Position numbers and translations under genes: made by a program. The notes beneath the pieces were generated by a model, which was not told the origin of the DNA, searched no databases, and saw only the letters and a list, made by a program, of their open reading frames with translations. This document shows, piece by piece, positions 25,371 through 37,112 of a DNA stretch of 64,000 bases; within the stretch, counting starts at the first letter, position 1; each line of letters begins with the position of its first letter. The stretch is from Methanoplanus sp. FWC-SCC4 (GTDB taxonomy: Archaea; Halobacteriota; Methanomicrobia; Methanomicrobiales; Methanomicrobiaceae), in the NCBI RefSeq assembly GCF_032878975.1, contig NZ_CP043875.1, positions 1,604,370-1,668,369 on the forward strand. Reading direction: 5' to 3'.

Positions 25371-26348
25371 TCACTCACCTCCCTTGCCCATTGCACCATC
25401 AATTGCTTCGATTATACCTTCAAACTGATTCATTACATCGAAGTTGAAGAAACTGCGTGGACACTGTGCATAGCATGCACCGCATTTTATGCACATTTCA
25501 CGGTCAATGTTGGGTCTTCCGTATTCAATTGTGATTGCACGGACAGGGCAGCTTGCTGCACATGTACCGCATCCCATACAGAGACCCTGATTGATGACAT
25601 CCACCATGAGGTCGCATCCGCAGGCTTCTGTTCCCTTCTTTGCAAGGTCCATTAACGGCTTTAAGTATGCTGCTGCAAGTTCTTTCTGCTCGTCTGTACC
25701 CTGCAGGAGCAGGTATGCCATTACACAGACATTTCTGATTGCTTCTGCACCCGGCGGGCATGAAGGGATATAAAGATCCACATCAATCAGGTCGCCGATT
25801 GGCACGAAAGACTCATGCTGGGGCTGGTTCCACTGACCACCACGGCAGAATCTTGTTATGTTTCCATATGCTGCACATCCACCGAGGGCAACGACAACTT
25901 TTGCCTTTTCCCTGGTTTCCTTAATTTCTCTGACGGAACACTCATCCTGAAGACATACTGAACCCTCTACCAATGCAACATCCATTTCAGGGATGTGCCT
26001 GACATCTGCAAGTGTCAGACAGTAGACGAGGTCTGCATAATCATCCAGAATTTTGAAGAGCCCCTCATAATTATCTGCAAGTGACACCAAACATCCGGTA
26101 CATCCGGACATGTGAACGTGTCCAACGGTAATTTTGTTTACCACAGGCTTTTCCTCCTTAATTTCTCCATCCAGCTTTTGTTCTGTCTTTACATCAGCGG
26201 GTTTCACCATGGGTTTTTCCACGGTTTCTTCCACAGGTTTCACGGGCCCGGACTTCTCCTGATCCACAACCGGTATTTTCACCGGCTTTTTCCCGGATTC
26301 CTTATCTTCGCCTGTAAAGATCTCTTTAAGTCGAGATAGTAGTCCCAT
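25371..26348 (-). CDS. frhG: F420-reducing hydrogenase small subunit FrhG with N-terminal extension
   Basis: A 325-residue small subunit holding the electron-transfer clusters. The hydrogenase core starts near residue 73 with GHVHMSGCTGCLVSLADN (proximal cluster cysteines 83 and 86), then LVEGSVC, GGCAAYGNI and IPSCPPGAEAI. Two ferredoxin motifs follow, CMGCGTCAASCP and CIKCGACYAQCP. An extra N-terminal segment of about 70 residues is unusual: it opens MGLLSRLKEIFTGE, a likely amphipathic helix, and continues with repeated Lys-Pro-Val-Glu. Its ATG has GGGGTGG at a good distance and no later start fits, so the extension is real. It overlaps frhD by 23 bases. Confidence 0.96.
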   Translation of the reverse strand: MGLLSRLKEIFTGEDKESGKKPVKIPVVDQEKSGPVKPVEETVEKPMVKPADVKTEQKLDGEIKEEKPVVNKITVGHVHMSGCTGCLVSLADNYEGLFKILDDYADLVYCLTLADVRHIPEMDVALVEGSVCLQDECSVREIKETREKAKVVVALGGCAAYGNITRFCRGGQWNQPQHESFVPIGDLIDVDLYIPSCPPGAEAIRNVCVMAYLLLQGTDEQKELAAAYLKPLMDLAKKGTEACGCDLMVDVINQGLCMGCGTCAASCPVRAITIEYGRPNIDREMCIKCGACYAQCPRSFFNFDVMNQFEGIIEAIDGAMGKGGE

Positions 26349-26841
26349 AATCCACCCCTATTTCTGTCAGTGCTAACTGCACTGCTTTAGGAATGGCCTT
26401 TCTAACGCTTTCAGTGACCCAGAATTCGGCCTCATCAGACTCGTTATCAATCTGGGATATGTCAATGCTCTCAGGCTGGCAACCCAATATTACTATTTCA
26501 GTTCTTTCCGAAAGGATCTGAAGCGGCTCTTTTAACCCCCATGAATGAGGATCGGTATAGCTTCCCGGAGGAAGAACATCCGGCGTCACTCTTGTTATCT
26601 CCCCTGGCTCACCGCCAAAGTCCATTATATCCAGTATAACCATTTTTTTAACAGGTATATCGGACTGTGCCATGAGTGTGAAGAGATAATGAGGGCCTGC
26701 CAGGCCTGCATCCATAGCCTTTACATTTTCAGGAAGTGACAGCTTTTTTAATTCGGCAATCGCTGCCGGTCCAAAACCGTCGTCAGTCTGAAGCGGATTT
26801 CCGCAACCGACGATCATATTTTCAGCATACCAGTCTGACAT
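26326..26841 (-). CDS. frhD: Coenzyme F420 hydrogenase maturation endopeptidase FrhD
   Basis: A 171-residue HycI-type protease that trims the C-terminus of FrhA after nickel insertion. The N-terminal IVGCGNPLQTDDGFGPAAI contains the conserved Gly-Asn-x-Asp-like nickel-sensing stretch, and DAGLAGPHYL and LDIMDFGGEPG follow as in the family. It sits between frhA and frhG as in other methanogens and overlaps frhG at its 3' end. Its substrate FrhA ends with a removable tail of 17 residues, which is consistent with this role. Confidence 0.94.
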   Translation of the reverse strand: MSDWYAENMIVGCGNPLQTDDGFGPAAIAELKKLSLPENVKAMDAGLAGPHYLFTLMAQSDIPVKKMVILDIMDFGGEPGEITRVTPDVLPPGSYTDPHSWGLKEPLQILSERTEIVILGCQPESIDISQIDNESDEAEFWVTESVRKAIPKAVQLALTEIGVDYGTTIST

Positions 26842-26851
26842 TAAACACTAC

Positions 26852-28222
26852 TCACTGAACAAGCTTCTGGGCCACTACCTTCTTCTTTTCATCCACTACC
26901 ATCATGTGTGTTGCACATGATACACATGGGTCGTATGCACGAACAATAACTTCTGCAAGCTGCCATGGTGCGCCTTCAAGTGCACGGCTGCATACAGGGA
27001 AGTTCCATGTGGTCGGCACAAGAAGTGAATACCACTGGACACGTCCGTCCTTTACTTTTGCAAGGTGTACATCTGTTCCACGTGGTGCTTCGTTTGCTGC
27101 CCATCCAAGTGAGCCGTCACCCTGTGGAATCTCGTCTGCAACTACAGCTCCTGAAGTGTCAAGTGCATCGACTGCCTCGATCATGCTGTATAAACAGTCC
27201 GGATATTCCATCTGACGTGCAATCTGAAGACCCATTGCTCCTTTCTTGTCATAGTTGCGGAACATTGCAAGACGTGCACGTGGTCCTACCTCGATAGGTG
27301 CTCCGTCATACATCGGAACAGCAGTACATGCTTCCACCTGTGGCCATGCCTTTCCACCTGCAGGTGTTGTGGCGTGGTTTGGATAGTTCGGGTCGTCAAG
27401 TGTAATTTCCTGCTCGCCCATGTACCAGTCCCATGGTCTGACTTCTGTCCAGCGCTCAGGGAACCACTTTGGATCTGCGTCAAGGTTTGTGCTTGCGTAG
27501 AGCGGATCTACTGCCATGTAACCCTGATCGTGGAATCCAAACTTGTCATCCTTCTCGACCTCGTAGCTGCCTGCAACAGATGCAGTTCCACGGTTCTCCC
27601 AGTCCTTCAGGACTGTTATCATGAACTCCATCTGATCATGTGCAAGACCTACTGCCTCTTTTGCAAGATCATAGATCTTTGCTTTTCCACGTGGTGAGAT
27701 GTTCTTGTACATACCACCAATTCTTGGGTTGCTTGGGTGAATTGGTTCTCCACCTGCAATCTCTCCCACAGTCTGACCGATCTCACGGAGTCTCTGGATA
27801 CGCAGTGCAACGCTGCGGACAGGTTCTTCCTTTGAGAACGGGTTGATGTGTGTATCTGTACCTGGCAGGTACATGTCAGGGAGAGTTAGAATGTTGTGCA
27901 GTGCGTGGCTGTGCAGCCTGTTTGCACACTGCAGGATGATACGAAGAAGGTATGCATCGTCAGGAATTTCACAGCCGATGGAACCTTCCATTGCTTCGAT
28001 ACCTGCGAGAGTGTGCGCAATCGGGCAGATACCACAGACACGGGATGAAATCTTTGGTGCCTGATGCATGGTCTTTCCGATTGCGAGTTTCTCAATACCC
28101 CTTACAGGTGTTATGCTGAGCCAGTCTCCACGCTCGATAATACCGTCATCATTGACTTTCAAAACGAGCTTGGTGTGACCCTCATGCCTTGTAGTTGGGG
28201 AAACCTCTACAACTTTCGACAA
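26852..28222 (-). CDS. frhA: F420-reducing [NiFe] hydrogenase large subunit FrhA
   Basis: A 456-residue catalytic subunit that splits H2. Nickel-iron ligands are the N-terminal RVCGIC (Cys63, Cys66) and the C-terminal DPCVSCATH (Cys433, Cys436). Cleavage by FrhD is expected after His439, removing 17 residues. No selenocysteine: both C-terminal positions are plain cysteine codons. The start is a TTG at 28222 with GAGGCGAT upstream, and the N-terminus SKVVEVSPTTRHEGH matches the family, so the non-ATG start is credible. First gene of the operon; the upstream 280 bases carry the promoter and a tandem repeat. Confidence 0.97.
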   Translation of the reverse strand: MSKVVEVSPTTRHEGHTKLVLKVNDDGIIERGDWLSITPVRGIEKLAIGKTMHQAPKISSRVCGICPIAHTLAGIEAMEGSIGCEIPDDAYLLRIILQCANRLHSHALHNILTLPDMYLPGTDTHINPFSKEEPVRSVALRIQRLREIGQTVGEIAGGEPIHPSNPRIGGMYKNISPRGKAKIYDLAKEAVGLAHDQMEFMITVLKDWENRGTASVAGSYEVEKDDKFGFHDQGYMAVDPLYASTNLDADPKWFPERWTEVRPWDWYMGEQEITLDDPNYPNHATTPAGGKAWPQVEACTAVPMYDGAPIEVGPRARLAMFRNYDKKGAMGLQIARQMEYPDCLYSMIEAVDALDTSGAVVADEIPQGDGSLGWAANEAPRGTDVHLAKVKDGRVQWYSLLVPTTWNFPVCSRALEGAPWQLAEVIVRAYDPCVSCATHMMVVDEKKKVVAQKLVQ

Positions 28223-28500
28223 ATTAATCGCCTCATTATTTTATATTTTGTTCAATTGGCTATACTGGTGTAAACACACAATTTGTTTTGCAACACACGT
28301 ACCTGAACTAATCTGAACTAATCCAGTACGCTAATTGGTAATTTCAGTCTTAGCTTTAAAAATAGCTTTCGTTCTTAATTCAAAATAATATTACAAATTT
28401 GTTTAAAAGTATTACCTTTTGCAGAAGATAAGTTAACATTCTGACCATAATAAATGAAAGAATTTTATTTTTGAACAAAAAGGTGGTTTGGATTAAGGAT
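28223..28500 (-). promoter_or_regulatory. frh operon upstream region with tandem repeat and palindromic flanks
   Basis: AT-rich noncoding region before frhA. At 28303-28322 the 10-base unit CTGAACTAAT occurs twice in tandem, that is on the same helix face. The pair is bracketed by CGTAC (28298-28302) and its complement GTACG (28326-28330). It lies about 80 bases upstream of the frhA start, and a TATA-like AAAATATAAAATAA is nearer the start. A regulator-binding site is the simplest reading, but no factor can be named. Confidence 0.45.
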
Positions 28501-29439
28501 TTAAGCCGTTTCGTTAAGTTCTGCACGAAGTTCCGCGATCGTGGCTTTTCTTTCGGCGTATGCATCATGCTGATGGATACTCTCTTCGTTTGTCTGTCTT
28601 ATAGTGACCAGTGAATCACCGGGCAGGAACGAGAAGTCTGTCAGAACGTGCTTTGCCATCTCACGGACACAGTCCTCGACAAACCTTGCATTTTTATGAG
28701 CTGAGAATACAACATGACTCTCATCACCACGTTTTAGGAGTTCGTAGATCTTTGCACTCATCGAATCCTTCAGAACTGAAATAATCTGTTCGAGATCGAC
28801 ACGCTGATCGTCATCAGTCTCGATGCACAAAAAGCCCTGTCCACGCTGGTTGTGTGTGGCCATAGGAACTTCAGAGAGGAACTTCTCTATCTTGTCGTGC
28901 TCAACACCAAGATCGATTAATTTGTTGTGGGCAATCTCTTTCATGATGTTCTGGGCACAGGGACAGGCGGTAATGCCGGTTACCTGGGCACCAATGCTCT
29001 TCCTGACAATAGGATCAGAACCGTTTCTTCTTGCAACCGCACTTGCGACAACCTTTACGACTTCATCGCACCCGGTCTTTGAAACAGGGGTCTCGCGACG
29101 TACCATGAAAGTGCTGGTCATTCTGACCTCTGTCCTGTCTGCGTACTCGTGATGATCAAGCAGTTTTCTTGCTACTGAATTGCAGACATCCTCTATTCCG
29201 TTGACTTCACCCTGAACGGTCTGCTGCAGTACTTCGTCAATTACTTCGAAATTGCGTGACATGTTTGCGCCTTTAAGACTGCTTGGCAGGTCCACAAAAA
29301 CATCAAAATTTGAAATAAAGATAACAGGACGTTTGCCAGGTCTTGCAACTTCGACTAACTTCTTTACGTTTTTCACACCGACTCTTGTAAGGTTGATGCG
29401 AACTTCCGGCAAAGTAGATTGGGTATCAGGTAATTCCAT
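28501..29439 (-). CDS. mptA: GTP cyclohydrolase MptA (methanopterin biosynthesis)
   Basis: A 312-residue COG1469/FolE2-type enzyme that converts GTP to 7,8-dihydro-D-neopterin 2',3'-cyclic phosphate, the first step of methanopterin synthesis. Characteristic segments: LTRVGVKNVKKLVEV, the metal-site region VRRETPVSKTGCDEVVK, GITACPCAQNIMKEIAHNK, and NQRGQGFLCIETDD. The cysteines and histidines expected around the Fe(II)/Zn site are present. Transcribed leftward ahead of the frh operon, with an AT-rich region separating them, so probably its own unit. Confidence 0.93.
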   Translation of the reverse strand: MELPDTQSTLPEVRINLTRVGVKNVKKLVEVARPGKRPVIFISNFDVFVDLPSSLKGANMSRNFEVIDEVLQQTVQGEVNGIEDVCNSVARKLLDHHEYADRTEVRMTSTFMVRRETPVSKTGCDEVVKVVASAVARRNGSDPIVRKSIGAQVTGITACPCAQNIMKEIAHNKLIDLGVEHDKIEKFLSEVPMATHNQRGQGFLCIETDDDQRVDLEQIISVLKDSMSAKIYELLKRGDESHVVFSAHKNARFVEDCVREMAKHVLTDFSFLPGDSLVTIRQTNEESIHQHDAYAERKATIAELRAELNETA

Positions 29440-29707
29440 TGAATAATCCTCTTAAATTTATCTGTGAACAACAATCTGAAAAATTAAAACAAACCACCAT
29501 TGAGCACGTTCTAAAAAAATCTCCTTTTTTTTATTTAACGGAACTCCAATCAGAAGAATATAAACTTCCTGATGAATTTTTACAGATAATGAACACAATT
29601 TTTTTTGGTCTTTGTACGTATTTTTACGTCAATAATATAATATTTATGAAGTTGCACCACAGTCTTAAAAATATTTTTAAAAAGACAAAAGTCAATTAAT
29701 ATCTGAC
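29440..29707. other. AT-rich divergent intergenic region
   Basis: Separates mptA (leftward) from the KARI-like gene (rightward). The only long frame here would begin with TTG inside the mptA start region, has no Shine-Dalgarno and reads as an unremarkable AT-rich translation, so I treat the interval as noncoding. It should hold both promoters; AATATAATATTTATG around 29635-29650 is a plausible TATA-rich element. Confidence 0.5.
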
Positions 29708-30571
29708 ATGTCCACCAAATCCGGAGATAACGCAGGAATTTTAGATAAAAGAAGAATTTCAATTATCGGTTATGGAAATGAAGGAAGACAGCATGCTCAG
29801 CGCCTGCGCGATTCCGGAACTGATTTTGTAATAGGCGTCAGACCGGGGAATAGCTGGGAAAGGGCATCAAAAGATGGATTTGACGTATTCTCCATTTCAG
29901 ATGCAGTCAGCGGATCGGATGTTGTAATCGTAACTCTTGCCGCAGACGGAATCAGAACCTCATTTGAAAAATATATCTCACCTTATATGAAAGAGGGAGC
30001 CTCTCTCGTTATTACTGATCCTTTTTTTCCCTGTTACCAGCTTTTGGAAACAAACAAAAATTATGACATCGGCGTTTTTTTTGTAACAGGACAGGACATA
30101 AGCAGTTCACAGGCGGATCTCATACCCAAATCCGCATATATATCGGTTTTAAACAACTTCAGCAAAAAGGCACAGGACATTGCAGCAGAACTTGCGACTC
30201 TGGAAGGAATTGCAGATGATCACATCTGTTTTGAAGACTTAAGGGACATTGCGGAATCAAAAATATTCGCTGAAGAGGCTGTCATGAAAGGGGCGGGGAT
30301 TTTTATCAGGGCTGCCATTGCGACGATGGAAAATAATGGTTACAATTCCAAAATGTCAAAAGAGATCGTTCTTAACACTTACATGGCGGCTGCTAATGAA
30401 TATTTAAGGAAGAATGATGAAAAAAAGGTAAAAACAGATGGTCAATCCCGCAGTGAAACTATAATGGAAGAAAATATTGCGGAATATATGAATGAAGTTA
30501 TTAAACTGACAAAAACAGGAATCATTGCAAGAGACAGAATGTTGTCAGAACTTACCCTGACAAATCATTAA
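29708..30571 (+). CDS. Ketol-acid reductoisomerase-like protein, probably not KARI
   Basis: A 287-residue protein whose N-terminal Rossmann domain matches IlvC: ISIIGYGNEGRQHAQRLRDSG and VIGVRPGNSW. Its C-terminal helical domain (ESKIFAEEAVMKGAG, residues 183-197) aligns with the KARI block around the metal ligands. Key changes: the KARI Asp of the Mg2+ site is Lys185, although Glu189 stays; the AHGFNIH block is TDPFFP (residues 103-108); and the KGPGH block is VTGQDIS. It therefore likely binds NAD(P)H but cannot catalyse the standard isomeroreduction. Not beside any ilv gene. Function unknown. Confidence 0.75.
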   Translation: MSTKSGDNAGILDKRRISIIGYGNEGRQHAQRLRDSGTDFVIGVRPGNSWERASKDGFDVFSISDAVSGSDVVIVTLAADGIRTSFEKYISPYMKEGASLVITDPFFPCYQLLETNKNYDIGVFFVTGQDISSSQADLIPKSAYISVLNNFSKKAQDIAAELATLEGIADDHICFEDLRDIAESKIFAEEAVMKGAGIFIRAAIATMENNGYNSKMSKEIVLNTYMAAANEYLRKNDEKKVKTDGQSRSETIMEENIAEYMNEVIKLTKTGIIARDRMLSELTLTNH

Positions 30572-30755
30572 TCTGAATTTACCGGGGGGGGATTTCGAGG
30601 TAAAACCAAATTTTTCATTTTTATCAGACACGGCCTGAAAGATTCTTTCCGTGCACTTTTTCACTAAACCTTTTTAATACACGTTTTTACATTCAGATTT
30701 TAATTCACGGAAACAGGATATCATTTAAATTGCAGATAGATATATAGATTACATT

Positions 30756-31220
30756 ATGTCTGTTTGTATTATTTACCATTCAGAATCAGGAAACACAAAA
30801 GAGATTGCCCAAAAACTTTCAAAGATTACCGGGGCAGATTTAATCGAAGTAAAACCTTCAAAAAAATACTCTAAAATATCCCTTTATACCCTTGGAATAA
30901 AAAGAGCAATTTCAGGCGATTTGGATCCGATTAACCACGATAAACTTGATGTTTCAGATTATGACACAATAGTAATCGGAACGCCGGTATGGGCGGGAAG
31001 GCAGACCCCTGCAATTAACAGTGCAATAAATGCGCTTACAGGGCATAAAGACAAAGATGCAATTGTATATGCCACCTACAAAAAAGATAAGGCGGAAACA
31101 TTTGACATTCTGACAACTAAACTGACTGAAAACGGGATGAATGTAAAATCTTCATTTGGATTTTCTGAATCAGAAATAAATGACAACGAAAAAATATCCG
31201 GACTCGCACAGCTGATCTAA
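30756..31220 (+). CDS. Flavodoxin family protein
   Basis: A 154-residue protein with the FMN phosphate-binding loop near the start (IIYHSESGNTKEIAQKLS) and the isoalloxazine-binding loop in VIGTPVWAGRQTPAINSAI. A small FMN electron carrier or FMN-dependent reductase subunit is likely. It follows the KARI-like gene by 184 bases on the same strand, with an AT-rich promoter-like region (AGATATATAGATTACATT) just upstream, so it is probably transcribed on its own. Confidence 0.88.
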   Translation: MSVCIIYHSESGNTKEIAQKLSKITGADLIEVKPSKKYSKISLYTLGIKRAISGDLDPINHDKLDVSDYDTIVIGTPVWAGRQTPAINSAINALTGHKDKDAIVYATYKKDKAETFDILTTKLTENGMNVKSSFGFSESEINDNEKISGLAQLI

Positions 31221-31252
31221 AAAAATTTAAAAAAAGATAAAAATATTTTTAG

Positions 31253-31275
31253 GAAAAATGGAAATTCCATTTTTC
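31253..31275. terminator. Palindromic hairpin followed by T-runs
   Basis: An 11-base perfect inverted repeat, GAAAAATGGAA and TTCCATTTTTC, around one central base. T-rich sequence flanks both sides (TTTTT before, a run of T after). It lies between the rightward flavodoxin gene and the leftward purL end, so it can act on either transcript. Confidence 0.55.
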
Positions 31276-31340
31276 AGGTATTTTTTTGCATTAAAATCCC
31301 CACCAGAAGGACGGGAATTTCAATTGCCGAAATATTTCCC

Positions 31341-33416
31341 TTAGTATCTCATCAGTTTTGTTGTTGAAGACAACAGCTCTTTTAATTCTGTACCTGTAAT
31401 TGCCAGGTCACCTGATTCGGTATGAATTAAAATACCGTCGCCTCCGCACTTTCCAATAACAGTGTAAGAAACTCCGGCAAGTGATTTCTCATCACTGACG
31501 GCAACAAGGAATCTGCCGTAAGACTCAGAGAAAAGCTCAGTCAGGGCATCTCCCTTTATTGTTACCTCACATGATTCAGTGAGACCGGCAAGTGCTGCAA
31601 CAAGTCCTCCATGTGAGATATCAGTTGCAGACCAGACATTTCCGTTTCTAACAAGATTCCTCATCACGTCAAGGACACAAACATCAGGAACTAAAGGTGC
31701 AGAGCCGCCGCATCCGGTCAGAAGATCAAGCATTGATCCTCCAAACTCAGGCTTTGCACTGCCGCCGATGACTGCAAGAATCATTCCGGGCTTTGCAGCA
31801 TTGAAGGCCCTTACATCTCCTTTACCCGCCATTCCAATCGACGGAGTCGGGAGAATCTGTGTTCCGAATTCATCAGATTCATTGTACAGGGATACATTTC
31901 CTCCGACTACAGGGATGTTGAGCTTCCTGCACATATCTCCCATACCCCTTACCGATTCACTGATCTGCCAGAAAATCTCTTTGTGAACAGGACTTGCAAA
32001 ATTCAGACAGTTTACAATACAGAGAGGTTCGGCACCCATTGCCGCAAGGTTTGCCGCATTCTCATAAACCACGTTTGCAGTACCTTCATACGGCTTTAGT
32101 CTGATCTGTCTCGGACTGCACCCGCATGAGAGATAGAGGGCCGAATCACCAAGACGCAAAACACCGCATCCGCCTTGTGTTGAGACTGTTCTTAGCTGGA
32201 CATCATGATCATACTGCCTTTTGACCCATGACTTGTCTGCAATGTCAGGATGGGAGAGAACCTTTTCAGCCAGCGTTTTGATGTTCTCTGATGGTTTTAT
32301 GAAAGGTGTTTCAACGGAATAGGGAGTGCCCTCCCAGGCTTCTTCCGGAGCACCCTCAACTAAAAGATCAATTGGGAGATCACAGACAACCTGACCATGG
32401 AAAGTTACGACATACCGCTTTTCTTCGGTTACCTCTCCGATATCGCTCCATTTCAGATCATATTTTTCAATAATCCTTGTGAGCTCTTCGACATCTTCTG
32501 AAAGGACTTCCATTAACATTCTTTCCTGCGATTCGGCAAGAAGAATCTCAACTTCGTTCATGTTGCTTTCACGAAGATGTACCTTGTCGGCAGCGATTCT
32601 TGCACCATAAGTGCTTGACATCTCTGATGATGCACCTGCAAGACCTGCCGCTCCAAGATCCCTGCATGAGAGAACCTTTCCGGTTTCTGCCATCTCAAGT
32701 GTTGCTTCAATTAAGAGTTTCTCTGTGTATGGATCTCCCACCTGCACAGCAGGTCTGTCCTCTGACTCGGAGTCCTCTGACAAATCGCGTGAAGCAAAGG
32801 ATGCGCCGCCAAGACCGTCCCTTCCGGTTGAGGAACCGTATAAAATCAGGCGGCTTTTTGGCTTTTTTACGCGTGCTGTCAGATATGTTTCAGGATCGAC
32901 CACACCAACGCAGACAACATTTACAAGAGGATTTCCGCTGTAATTCTCATCAAACGTCAGTTCACCCCTTACAACAGGAACACCGATGCAGTTGCCGTAA
33001 TCTCCGATACCGGATACAACGTGTTCGAAGAGGTACCTGTTCTTCTCACCTGACAAATCCCCAAAATAAAGGGGGTCCATAAGTGCAATCGGTCTTGCGC
33101 CCATAGATATAATGTCGCGGACAATTCCTCCGACACCTGTTGCGGCACCGTCATAAGGATCGACATAGCTTGGATGGTTATGTGATTCCATTCCGATTGC
33201 TATTGCAATCTCGTCAGAAAAACGCACAATCGCGGCATCGTCGCCCGGTCCCAAAAGCACATTTTCCCCGCTTGTCGGCAGGGTGCGCAGAAGGGGCTTT
33301 GTTGAACGATAGGAGCAGTGCTCACTCCAGAGGTTCTCAAAACATGCCATTTCAAGATCAGAGAGAGATCTCCCGATTTCCTTTTCTATATACTCAATAT
33401 CACGGGAAGGTAGCAT
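31341..33416 (-). CDS. purL: Phosphoribosylformylglycinamidine synthase PurL
   Basis: A 691-residue PurL, the small type used by archaea with PurS and PurQ. It catalyses the ATP-dependent conversion of FGAR to FGAM in purine synthesis. Blocks: FENLWSEHCSYRSTKPLLR, GPGDDAAIVRF, ESHNHPSYVDPYDGAATGVG, GGIVRDIISMGARPIALMD, and in the second half NLAAMGAEPLCIVNCLNF and PVVGGNVSLYNES. Length is normal. A short inverted repeat lies about 80 bases upstream of the start. No other pur genes are adjacent. Confidence 0.96.
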   Translation of the reverse strand: MLPSRDIEYIEKEIGRSLSDLEMACFENLWSEHCSYRSTKPLLRTLPTSGENVLLGPGDDAAIVRFSDEIAIAIGMESHNHPSYVDPYDGAATGVGGIVRDIISMGARPIALMDPLYFGDLSGEKNRYLFEHVVSGIGDYGNCIGVPVVRGELTFDENYSGNPLVNVVCVGVVDPETYLTARVKKPKSRLILYGSSTGRDGLGGASFASRDLSEDSESEDRPAVQVGDPYTEKLLIEATLEMAETGKVLSCRDLGAAGLAGASSEMSSTYGARIAADKVHLRESNMNEVEILLAESQERMLMEVLSEDVEELTRIIEKYDLKWSDIGEVTEEKRYVVTFHGQVVCDLPIDLLVEGAPEEAWEGTPYSVETPFIKPSENIKTLAEKVLSHPDIADKSWVKRQYDHDVQLRTVSTQGGCGVLRLGDSALYLSCGCSPRQIRLKPYEGTANVVYENAANLAAMGAEPLCIVNCLNFASPVHKEIFWQISESVRGMGDMCRKLNIPVVGGNVSLYNESDEFGTQILPTPSIGMAGKGDVRAFNAAKPGMILAVIGGSAKPEFGGSMLDLLTGCGGSAPLVPDVCVLDVMRNLVRNGNVWSATDISHGGLVAALAGLTESCEVTIKGDALTELFSESYGRFLVAVSDEKSLAGVSYTVIGKCGGDGILIHTESGDLAITGTELKELLSSTTKLMRY

Positions 33417-33497
33417 AATTGTAGAAATGTCTGGTTTTATAAACAGATAATAGATGCCTAAACATGTTCATCATTTAAATGTCTGGCAGGGTTTTCA

Positions 33498-33518
33498 CCG
33501 GCAGGCATGATCTGCCGG
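33498..33518. terminator. GC-rich hairpin between the receiver gene and purL
   Basis: A perfect 7-base inverted repeat, CCGGCAG and CTGCCGG, with a GCATGAT loop. It lies about 55 bases beyond the receiver gene's stop and about 80 bases upstream of purL. It may be the receiver transcript's 3' end or a purL leader structure. Confidence 0.4.
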
Positions 33519-33570
33519 AAAGTGGACTGATTTGTTAAAAAACAGCAGATTTCAAAAAAATATCTGAAAA

Positions 33571-33954
33571 TTATTTATTAAGAGCAATCTTTATTGCCAT
33601 TTTTAGTTCAAAATCCTCAAAAGGTTTTGTAATATACCCCGAGGGCTTTGTTTCAATCGCACGGGAGATTATTTCATCTTCCATATGTGAACTCAGATAG
33701 ATTACAGGAATATCAGGGTACACCTTTTTAATTTGATGCACGGCCTCTATCCCGTCAATCTCACCCGGGAGAGTGATATCCATTAAAACAAGGTCAGGAA
33801 GATATTTTCCGACAGCCAGAACACCATCTTCTCCTGTCATTGCAACCTCATAGTTTCCATAACCCATTTCTTTTAACCGCCACTGGATAAGATCGGATAC
33901 AATCTCATCATCCTCTACAATAAGTATTTTAATACCGGACAAATCCAAAAACAT
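33571..33954 (-). CDS. Single-domain response regulator
   Basis: A 127-residue receiver with ILIVEDDEIVSDLIQWRL (acidic pair), DLVLMDITLPGEIDG (phospho-acceptor Asp), VIYLSSHMED (Ser) and YITKPFEDFE (Lys). All conserved positions are intact, and there is no DNA-binding domain. It follows the large multi-PAS kinase by about 50 bases on the same strand and is the most likely direct partner for that kinase. Output is unknown; single receivers can act as phosphate shuttles or protein switches. Confidence 0.93.
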   Translation of the reverse strand: MFLDLSGIKILIVEDDEIVSDLIQWRLKEMGYGNYEVAMTGEDGVLAVGKYLPDLVLMDITLPGEIDGIEAVHQIKKVYPDIPVIYLSSHMEDEIISRAIETKPSGYITKPFEDFELKMAIKIALNK

Positions 33955-34007
33955 CTCCCTCTCAATAATTTATTATTAGAGCCGTATTATCTAAAAAACT
34001 TTATTTT

Positions 34008-36950
34008 TTATTCTGAAAATCTGTAACCCTCATAAGGTATTTCTATCTCAAATCTTGCGCCTTCACCATAAACACCTGTCTCATGAATTTTCATCCCCGT
34101 AATGCCCAGAATTTCTTTTGTTAAAAATAACCCGAGACCCGTATTGCTTCCAAAACCATGATCAAATATCTTCTCTTTTAACTTATCCGGAACACCAAGA
34201 CCATTGTCCATGACCACAATAACACCATAATCATTGGATTTAACAAAATCCAGAGACATCATAGTCACTTTTTCACCATGCCTTACTGCATTGTCAAACA
34301 GATTGAAAAATATCTTCTCAAGCATAGGATCGGCATAAACCTCCAGAGGTCCGCATTTCACATCAATTGTGACCCCGGAAGACCTGGCCATCCCCTTAAT
34401 TCTTAATGCAATATTGTCAACCCTCTGCCATCTGGGCACTTCCACTCCTACATTGTGATAATCACGGGTAAATTCAATCTGCTCTTTGATATTTTCAGAT
34501 GCCTGACGAATTCTTTTAAGGTGATGCGTCAGTTCATCATTATCCCTGACTTTTTTGTCCATCAGGTCTGTAAAGCCCTTTATCCCCGCAACCTGATTTA
34601 GAATATCATGGCGGGTTATGCTTGACAAAAGATTGAGCTTTCTGTTTGCTTCGTATAATGAGTTCTGATACTGCTTGATCTCGTTTATATCCTGCATTAT
34701 TCCGACAATTCTTAATGGGATTCCTCCTGAATCTGTGTCGGATATTTTTCCCATCACATTTATCCATTTATATCTGCCATCTCCGCACAGGATGTGATAT
34801 TCGGATTCAAAATGCCTGCTTTCCTTATCAATAACCCTCTGTTCAACATCAACAACATCGTTAAAGAAATCCATGATGTCCCTGAAGAACTTCACCTGAA
34901 GTATGTCCTTCCAGTTGTCCGAACCCTTATAACAACCCTCTTCGCTGTAACAGAACATTTCCTGGTAATTGCCGGAGAAAAACATCTCGTCATTTACCAT
35001 ATCCCAGTCCCAGACACAGACACCTGCCCCTTCTATTGCAAGATTAAGCCTTTCCTCACTGACAATAAAGGCTTCTTCCATCCTTTTTCTGGATGATATG
35101 TCAATCGCAATGCCCCGGGCACCTTCAGTCTTTCCGTTTTTTTCAATGGGACTTGTATAGATCAAAAAGGGTATTTTAGTGCCGTTAGTTTTTATAACGG
35201 AATATTCATATCCCCTTTCTGAGCGATACCCTGAGATCATCCACTCAAAATTCTCCCTTGCCCTTGAGCGGTCAGGCTCGTCAATGAGTGAATAGATGTT
35301 AAAGCCTTCTTTAAACTGTTCGGGAGAGATAATTCCCGAATCAAAACCATTTTTATTTAAAAATGTGATCATGCCTCCATTGTCAATTTCAAAGACAATC
35401 TGCGGCAGAAGATCGGTAAGATTCCTAAACCTCCTCTCACTTTCGATAAGTGCGGATTCAGAGATCTTCCTCTCTGTAATATCCCTGATAATTGACTGAA
35501 CAATTCCCTTGCTTTTGGAAACAATGCTTGCACTGATTTCTACAAATACCTCATTTCCCGAACGGGTTTTGAGCTTTGTTTCATAAAAATAATTTCCTGA
35601 TTCTTTTAGATTTGAGAGTGCATCTTTGAGGGCATTATATTCTGACCCGGGATATACAGCCGATAATTCAATATTTAGTAGTTCATCTTTTTTATAGCCG
35701 AGAATTTTAACCAGGCTGTCATTTATATCAATAATTCTTCCATTGAAATCATGAATTATTACGGCATCGTTGGAATTTTCAAAAAGACTCCTGTATTTTT
35801 TCTCATTTCTTCTAAGAGCCTTTTCCATGTGCTTTCTCTGGCTAATGTCAATTGCAATCCCGCGAAGACCACTGATCTCACCGCCATTGAATATATATCC
35901 AAAATGAACCATCAGTGGAAAAACCGAACCATCCTTTCTTTTGGCATTGTATTCAACAGCACCTATTATATGCCCTGTCAAAAACCAGTGAATGTTTTTG
36001 GTTGCCCTTTCACGCTCTTCTTCACTTAATATACCCTGAAATAACATCCCTCCTTCAAGCTCTTCGGGAGAATATCCAAACATATTGGTGGAATAACGTG
36101 TTGCAAAAGTGAATTTTCCATTAGAATCCATCTCAAATATAACTTCGGGAAGCTGATTGGTCAGACTTTTCAGCCTGTTTTCACTTTCACGAAGAGCATT
36201 GAGCGCATTCATTTTACCGGTTGTATCCCTTATGAAGACATGCATGATCCCTTTTTCAGAATCAGCCATGCTTGCGCTGATTTCAGCCGTGATCACCTTT
36301 CCGCTTTTAATCTTTATTTCGGTTTCATAAAAGCCGTGTCCGTCTCTCATCACCTCAGCCAGGGCTTTTCTCATCAGTTTGCAATCGCCCTCAATTTTCA
36401 GATCCTTAAAATCAAGTTCTTCATCAATGCTGCCTTCAATCTCAAACATTTTTCTGGCAGCAGGATTGCACATGAGAATTTTACCGTCCATTCTGTGAAC
36501 GATCACCCCGTCTCCGGAGTTTTCAAAAATATTCAGATACCTTTTTTGAATCTCCTTTAAATCATCCTCTTTTTGATGGAGTCCCTGTGCAATTACCGTT
36601 GTAACTGTCCCTATACAGACGTAGGTGAATACAAAAAGAATCCCTGAATAAAAAATCATCTCACCAGGGCTGCCTGCCAAAACATAGATTATGAGATTTG
36701 TGAATATGTAGAATGCAGCAAGTGAAAAACTAATCCGGAGTCCTTTTGCAGGATACTGAAATATAAGAAATATCAGCGGAAAATAAAATATATGGGACAA
36801 AACAAGCATTAACCCGTCACTAAAGAGATAGAGGGAAATCTCGGATATAAAAACCGTAAATACAACAAGTCCCAAAAGAATAAGATTTAGAAGATCCCCA
36901 CAATTTTTACCTTTAAAGTCCCGTATTTTCATTAAGCCTGTAAATTTCAA
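34008..36950 (-). CDS. Membrane-bound multi-PAS histidine kinase
   Basis: About 980 residues. Four or five membrane helices occupy the first 115 residues, without an extracellular ligand domain. Five PAS domains follow (roughly 140-255, 265-385, 390-505, 510-630, 635-760). The first and third share FENSxDxVIxH and the second and fourth share LPxxxFE, suggesting a duplicated PAS pair. The kinase core has the H-box SSITRHDILNQVAGIKGFTD, N-box NLFDNAVRHG, DNGLGV and GLGLFLTKEI. The TTG at 36950 with AGGGTGA upstream is my preferred start; GTG 36959 and ATG 36932 are alternatives. Likely cotranscribed with the receiver gene downstream. Confidence 0.9.
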   Translation of the reverse strand: MKFTGLMKIRDFKGKNCGDLLNLILLGLVVFTVFISEISLYLFSDGLMLVLSHIFYFPLIFLIFQYPAKGLRISFSLAAFYIFTNLIIYVLAGSPGEMIFYSGILFVFTYVCIGTVTTVIAQGLHQKEDDLKEIQKRYLNIFENSGDGVIVHRMDGKILMCNPAARKMFEIEGSIDEELDFKDLKIEGDCKLMRKALAEVMRDGHGFYETEIKIKSGKVITAEISASMADSEKGIMHVFIRDTTGKMNALNALRESENRLKSLTNQLPEVIFEMDSNGKFTFATRYSTNMFGYSPEELEGGMLFQGILSEEERERATKNIHWFLTGHIIGAVEYNAKRKDGSVFPLMVHFGYIFNGGEISGLRGIAIDISQRKHMEKALRRNEKKYRSLFENSNDAVIIHDFNGRIIDINDSLVKILGYKKDELLNIELSAVYPGSEYNALKDALSNLKESGNYFYETKLKTRSGNEVFVEISASIVSKSKGIVQSIIRDITERKISESALIESERRFRNLTDLLPQIVFEIDNGGMITFLNKNGFDSGIISPEQFKEGFNIYSLIDEPDRSRARENFEWMISGYRSERGYEYSVIKTNGTKIPFLIYTSPIEKNGKTEGARGIAIDISSRKRMEEAFIVSEERLNLAIEGAGVCVWDWDMVNDEMFFSGNYQEMFCYSEEGCYKGSDNWKDILQVKFFRDIMDFFNDVVDVEQRVIDKESRHFESEYHILCGDGRYKWINVMGKISDTDSGGIPLRIVGIMQDINEIKQYQNSLYEANRKLNLLSSITRHDILNQVAGIKGFTDLMDKKVRDNDELTHHLKRIRQASENIKEQIEFTRDYHNVGVEVPRWQRVDNIALRIKGMARSSGVTIDVKCGPLEVYADPMLEKIFFNLFDNAVRHGEKVTMMSLDFVKSNDYGVIVVMDNGLGVPDKLKEKIFDHGFGSNTGLGLFLTKEILGITGMKIHETGVYGEGARFEIEIPYEGYRFSE

Positions 36951-37112
36951 TTGTTTCACCCTGATGAATTATTTCGAAATGCTGTAAGACAATGCCTCAA
37001 TGCATGTATCCCTCTAAAGAGTAGTCTGGTCAATTTCAGAATAAAATAAATCCGGTTTTGCCGGTTGCCTGAAAAGATATAATTTATACTCATAGTGTCA
37101 TATAAGTAAAGC

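Follow-up and report, generated by a model that had tools for sequence, protein, structure and literature searches.

What is a protein that resembles ketol-acid reductoisomerase (KARI, the product of ilvC) but has lost almost its entire active site, and does it still do anything? The question arises in Methanoplanus sp. FWC-SCC4, where we analyzed a stretch of 64,000 nucleotides, here called the window (C1:1604370-1668369). An open reading frame of 287 codons with an ATG start was confirmed at 29708-30571 on the forward strand. Its product matches KARI_N (PF07991) with 85.9 bits against a cut-off of 20.6 (E 3e-24), whereas KARI_C (PF01450) gave no match to it by hmmscan or in a search of its own genome, and its score of 98.7 bits for the ilvC equivalog TIGR00465 lies below the cut-off of 226. 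Compared by sequence with solved structures, the protein has KARIs as its best matches, aligned over residues 14-217. A preliminary description, made from the sequence, had called it a KARI-like protein with lost catalytic residues and an IlvC-like fold. The open reading frame, the KARI_N match and the single remaining residue of a seven-residue active site bear out the first statement. As for the fold, the Rossmann half stands, but the helical knot is not established, with KARI_C unmatched and the AlphaFold2 model weak in its C-terminal part. The gene and its surroundings are composed as follows.

28501..29439, minus strand: mptA (GTP cyclohydrolase MptA), divergent neighbor that marks the slot (equivalog profile, gene order)
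29634..29650, no strand assigned: AT-rich element (AATATAATATTTATGAA and variants) separating mptA from the KARI-like gene, kept in 7 of 7 aligned genomes, among them G013, which lacks the gene
29708..30571, plus strand: KARI-like gene (287 aa), located in the ancestral ilvC slot (profiles and gene order)
30756..31220, plus strand: flavodoxin gene, belonging to the ilvC-flavodoxin block (profile, gene order)
31341..33416, minus strand: purL, convergent neighbor that closes the block (equivalog profile, gene order)

Leftward mptA, rightward ilvC and flavodoxin, and leftward purL form a block conserved across the order, and the KARI-like gene occupies the ilvC position. In relatives, ordinary ilvC is divergent from mptA across gaps of 121-317 bases, often with flavodoxin and then purL next. 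The preliminary description had taken the flavodoxin gene and the lack of branched-chain amino-acid genes nearby as hints of a redox role. Both observations are accurate: the flavodoxin gene does follow, and ilvC, ilvB and ilvD scoring over cut-off are absent from the window, their genomic copies lying outside it. They offer no such hint, however, because ordinary ilvC adjoins mptA order-wide, often with the same flavodoxin. As the ilvC-flavodoxin block is itself conserved, the flavodoxin is no clue to function; it lies within 2.5 kb of mptA on the slot side in at least 33 of 76 genomes, many of the stretches being short. As a functional partner of the KARI-like protein it was ruled out, since it is also found 3' of ordinary ilvC elsewhere in the order. 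In one genome (G036, L115 3111-4154), two tandem flavodoxin genes lie 3' of ilvC in this block. The AT-rich element may be the mptA promoter or a shared promoter, and an Rfam scan of 26000-37000 returned no match.

We surveyed the slot in 80 genomes, including that of Methanoplanus sp. FWC-SCC4 (G000), of which 76 had a readable mptA locus. Ordinary ilvC occupied the slot in 64, a KARI-like gene in six (G000, G007, G019, G022, G024 and G026), and neither in six (G001, G005, G008, G011, G013 and G015); these counts place G027, a 59% complete genome, by eye under ordinary ilvC with frame breaks, against its automatic label as KARI-like. All 12 slots without ordinary ilvC belong to genera g1, g2, g6 and g8, which are united by mptA trees (support 94/97 for DNA and 89/82 for protein), although neither tree settles whether g1 is sister to g8. 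A search for remnants where the slot is empty (G013, g2 and g6) detected none (best E 0.25). Since the KARI-like gene has gone without detectable trace from these genomes, one of them (G013) in the same genus, it is dispensable.

To read the active site, we aligned 76 ordinary IlvC sequences, comprising 62 filed as mptA-linked (one of them, G031, from a stretch without mptA) and 14 leu-linked; rows L039 (G062), L089 (G016, at a contig edge) and L088 (G027, frame-broken) were kept outside this set. The following features of the KARI-like gene emerge.

29750..30022, plus strand: retained NADP-binding Rossmann half, residues 15-105, the part kept in short forms (profiles, alignment, model)
29840..29854, plus strand: β2-αB loop R45-S49 (RPGNS), equivalent of the NADPH 2'-phosphate loop (alignment; loop role from PMC8615647 and PMC5940873)
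30017..30019, plus strand: codon of Asp104, which replaces catalytic His107 and is Asp in 6 of 6 homologues (alignment)
30260..30262, plus strand: codon of Lys185, which replaces the metal-bridging Asp190 (alignment)
30023..30568, plus strand: C-terminal part, what is left of the catalytic helical domain; diverges fast and is missing from short forms (alignment, model)

His107, Lys130, Asp190, Glu194, Glu226, Glu230 and Ser251, in the numbering of the organism's own IlvC, are invariant in 76/76 ordinary sequences; His107, Lys130 and Ser251 are catalytic residues. The corresponding letters of the window protein are Asp104, Thr, Lys185, Glu189, a gap, a gap and Glu, so that only Glu189, the counterpart of Glu194, is retained. 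Glu194 is the sole active-site residue kept in two of the three long KARI-like proteins, and the catalytic His has become Asp in all six homologues. Residue 185 is indeed Lys, as the preliminary description had it, where class I KARI has the Mg-bridging Asp; there, both Mg ions are bridged by Asp190 (D191 in Sac-KARI), with Glu residues making up the rest of the sites (PMC5940873). With all metal ligands but one lost, a Mg-dependent KARI-type enzyme is unlikely, and with six of seven active-site positions replaced or gapped, KARI chemistry is not credible for the window protein. A functional second KARI was accordingly ruled out.

The cofactor side has fared differently. According to PMC8615647 and PMC5940873, an Arg and a Ser of the KARI β2-αB loop hold the 2'-phosphate of NADPH, and both (R45 and S49 in the window protein) are kept in all six KARI-like homologues, which share the motif GVRPGxSWERAS. 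The glycine loop reads GYGxxG in the window protein and the three short forms; in G019 and G007 it is broken (GYDxxG or GYDxxA), which would weaken dinucleotide binding there. Class I KARI of the mptA-linked type in the same order thus resembles the window protein in slot, N-terminal Rossmann domain and NADPH-type β2-αB loop, with a mean identity of 43% between the N-terminal half and the mptA-linked IlvC of its own family. It differs in length (about 330 aa versus 287 or 131-141 aa) and in having an intact active site and KARI_C, where the window protein keeps one Glu and no recognizable KARI_C.

Three of the KARI-like genes are short. They come from Methanomicrobium mobile BP (G022) and two rumen Methanomicrobium MAGs (G024 and G026), and their slot ORFs of 141, 131 and 135 aa, respectively, end after the NADP-binding half. 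Only about 115-140 bases separate the stop codon from purL in G022 and G024, so the catalytic half has been deleted there. No ilvC, ilvD or ilvB over cut-off was found in G022, G024 or G026 (completeness 91%, 89% and 74%). Loss of the pathway fits the requirement of M. mobile for isovalerate, 2-methylbutyrate and isobutyrate (PMC10658910).

Structure prediction reflects the same division. The AlphaFold2 model of the window protein, built with three sequences in the alignment, has a mean pLDDT of 65, with blocks of 80-91 over residues 11-100 and ten-residue blocks of 31-64 from residue 181 on. Foldseek matched this model to KARIs with high rmsd, a sign that the domains do not align as a single rigid unit. 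The G024 short form was modeled with a pLDDT of 90 and a pTM of 0.85, its short tail forming an extra strand, and its best Foldseek matches in the PDB are KARI N-domains.

We then asked whether these genes are under selection. A pseudogene would be recognized by a disrupted frame or a dN/dS near 1; here, reading frames are open in 6/6 copies, and the three short-form pairs gave dN/dS values of 0.38 (95% bootstrap 0.22-0.63), 0.31 (0.19-0.48) and 0.22 (0.13-0.36), or 0.24, 0.25 and 0.22 over residues 1-105. The short forms are under purifying selection, although their values are about 4 to 8 times higher than those of mptA in the same pairs (0.03-0.09). For the long forms, dS is saturated, so the case for selection draws on the open frames plus the slower evolution of the N-terminal half, with dN of 0.50, 0.54 and 0.34 versus 0.96, 1.17 and 0.77 for the remainder. 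When neutral evolution was simulated at 0.3 redraws per site, the ORF of the window protein acquired a mean of 7.5 stops and was still open in 0.05% of 2000 runs. Short ORFs stayed open in 4-18% of runs, making open frames by themselves weak evidence in their case.

The preliminary description had proposed looking for a normal ilvC in the genome, and one is present at C1:1965641-1966573, adjoining leuA homologues and ilvB, with ilvD at C1:1984113. Such a leu-linked ilvC occurs in 9 of the 12 genomes without ordinary ilvC in the slot, the exceptions being G022, G024 and G026. Together with those of G066, G052, G062 and G072, the nine copies form one clade (13 rows, 100/95), on which basis the second ilvC appears to be of single origin. 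Leu-linked ilvC has probably also passed between families. The copies of G052, G062 and G072 (family f6; L127, L040 and L042) are nested in the leu-linked clade of g1, g2, g6 and g8, which belong to another family, a placement that suggests horizontal transfer of the leu/ilv cluster.

A similar arrangement exists in g21 (G047, G062 and G072), whose mptA-linked IlvC has likewise diverged in the mptA slot while a second ilvC sits elsewhere, leu-linked in G062 and G072 and beside an ilvB in G047. Unlike the KARI-like proteins, these slot copies keep the active-site motifs as far as the sequences run, and those of G062 and G072 are perhaps a parallel, earlier stage of the same process. The slot ilvC of G062 (L039 4849-5721, 291 aa) ends early, its open frame measuring 305 aa versus 464 in G072 (L041 5324-6295).

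The ancestry of the KARI-like genes was examined in a tree of 54 of 82 rows, which leaves out the short forms and takes at most 4 rows per outside family, besides the g21 and leu-linked rows. The three long KARI-like proteins form one clade (100/100) on branches at or near the program's length maximum, in a tree that carries warnings on letter make-up and long branches. With that long-branch caveat, the comparison with IlvC that had been suggested at the outset groups the window protein with two other catalytically dead copies and not with functional IlvC. With a normal ilvC also present in the genome, neither of the two outcomes that would have spoken against the preliminary description was obtained. 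Because of the extreme branch lengths, we base the origin mainly on gene order and less on the tree. In 6/6 cases, the N-terminal half has a higher mean identity with mptA-linked IlvC (f1) than with leu-linked copies, while the C-terminal halves do not discriminate; in six diagnostic N-half columns (36 letters), 15 letters favor mptA-linked, 6 leu-linked and 15 neither. Given gene order, N-half identity and the shared Asp104 and GVRPGxSWERAS, common descent from mptA-linked ilvC is our best reading of these sequences.

We also examined how far the family extends. A profile built from the six KARI-like proteins was searched in 232 genomes of the order, 215 of which had a match; it scored 225-455 bits on its own members and 162.5 on the next best of the 232 genomes. 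A scan of genome contigs gave 32 loci, of which four lack the active site (L129, L139, L145 and L154), all from Methanomicrobiaceae (one MAG of that family and three Methanomicrobium). A wide spread was rejected, since most or all of the active-site residues are retained at the remaining 28. A KARI homologue of the haloarchaeon Halobellus salinus (L157, 3001-3336) has Ser for His107 and Arg for Lys130 but retains the active-site Ser and every metal ligand, and is possibly another reworked KARI.

We consider it probable, at roughly 0.68, that the KARI-like gene is a displaced ancestral ilvC that became a non-catalytic, putative NADP(H)-binding protein. On this reading, the original ilvC of the order is the mptA-linked gene. 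Branched-chain amino-acid synthesis would have passed, in an ancestor shared by a few related genera, to a second ilvC next to leuA and ilvB, whereupon the freed old copy would have lost its active-site His, Lys, Asp, two Glu and Ser, and its catalytic helical domain would have eroded. The N-terminal half with the NADP(H) 2'-phosphate loop has remained under purifying selection, and in the M. mobile group it stands alone as a protein of 131-141 aa. The slot, the lost active-site residues, the second ilvC, the truncation, the selection on the short forms and the confident model of one of them are observed, whereas the order of events is inferred. With moderate confidence we favor a putative role in NADP(H) binding, since the Rossmann half and the 2'-phosphate loop are what all six sequences share; the broken glycine loops of G007 and G019 argue against such binding in those two. 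The protein may act without catalysis, for example as a cofactor-responsive or scaffolding protein.

The main rival holds that the gene is a slowly decaying pseudogene without present function, left behind after replacement by leu-linked ilvC. Its loss from G013, g2 and g6 with no remnant detected, its fast evolution, the deletion of the C-terminal half in the M. mobile group, the two broken glycine loops and a short-form dN/dS well above that of mptA would all fit decay. Yet every frame is open, against the rarity of open frames in the neutral runs for the window gene; the upper bounds on short-form dN/dS stay below 0.65; the His-to-Asp change and the GVRPGxSWERAS motif are common to all six; and the short form is predicted as a compact fold. 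We therefore regard decay as a serious but rather unlikely account. A pseudo-subunit that regulates functional IlvC by pairing with it is very improbable. KARI is an oligomeric enzyme, and both proteins are present in G000, G007 and G019, but M. mobile and its two relatives keep the short form with no IlvC found, so pairing is not the common role.

It is also improbable, though less so, that the active site was rebuilt and the gene now encodes a novel NAD(P)H-dependent enzyme. The precedent would be BurG, which PMC9359912 presents as a neofunctionalized KARI: an NAD+-dependent cyclopropanol synthase of the KARI family (PDB 7pce and others), repurposed away from amino-acid synthesis. BurG is among the Foldseek matches of the KARI-like models, and the clade-specific Asp for the catalytic His (6/6) speaks for such a path. 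BurG, however, is a working enzyme, whereas the KARI-like proteins have lost metal ligands. A KARI-like enzyme is disfavored because three of the six species have lost the whole catalytic half; the C-terminal halves of the other three share few residues, and we saw in them no new set of conserved metal-binding or acid-base residues.

Returning to the displaced, non-catalytic protein, a broader version of that reading is tentative and rather doubtful as a whole: that a central metabolic enzyme, once displaced, shed its catalytic domain step by step until a small independent protein responsive to NADP(H) was left, that this protein was kept after its host lost the pathway, and that intermediates, full-length but dead or half-length, survive in extant relatives. 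In the collection of papers searched for KARI pseudoenzymes and paralogs, including those of Methanomicrobiales, no paper on these KARI-like proteins was found. For annotation they are a hazard, as the KARI_N match could yield the name ketol-acid reductoisomerase, which in M. mobile would falsely imply a valine/isoleucine pathway. At one syntenic site, related methanogens present a natural series of active enzyme, dead full-length copy, cofactor-binding half and empty slot. If the half-protein binds NADP(H), it would show how a housekeeping enzyme can give rise to a sensor or binding protein.
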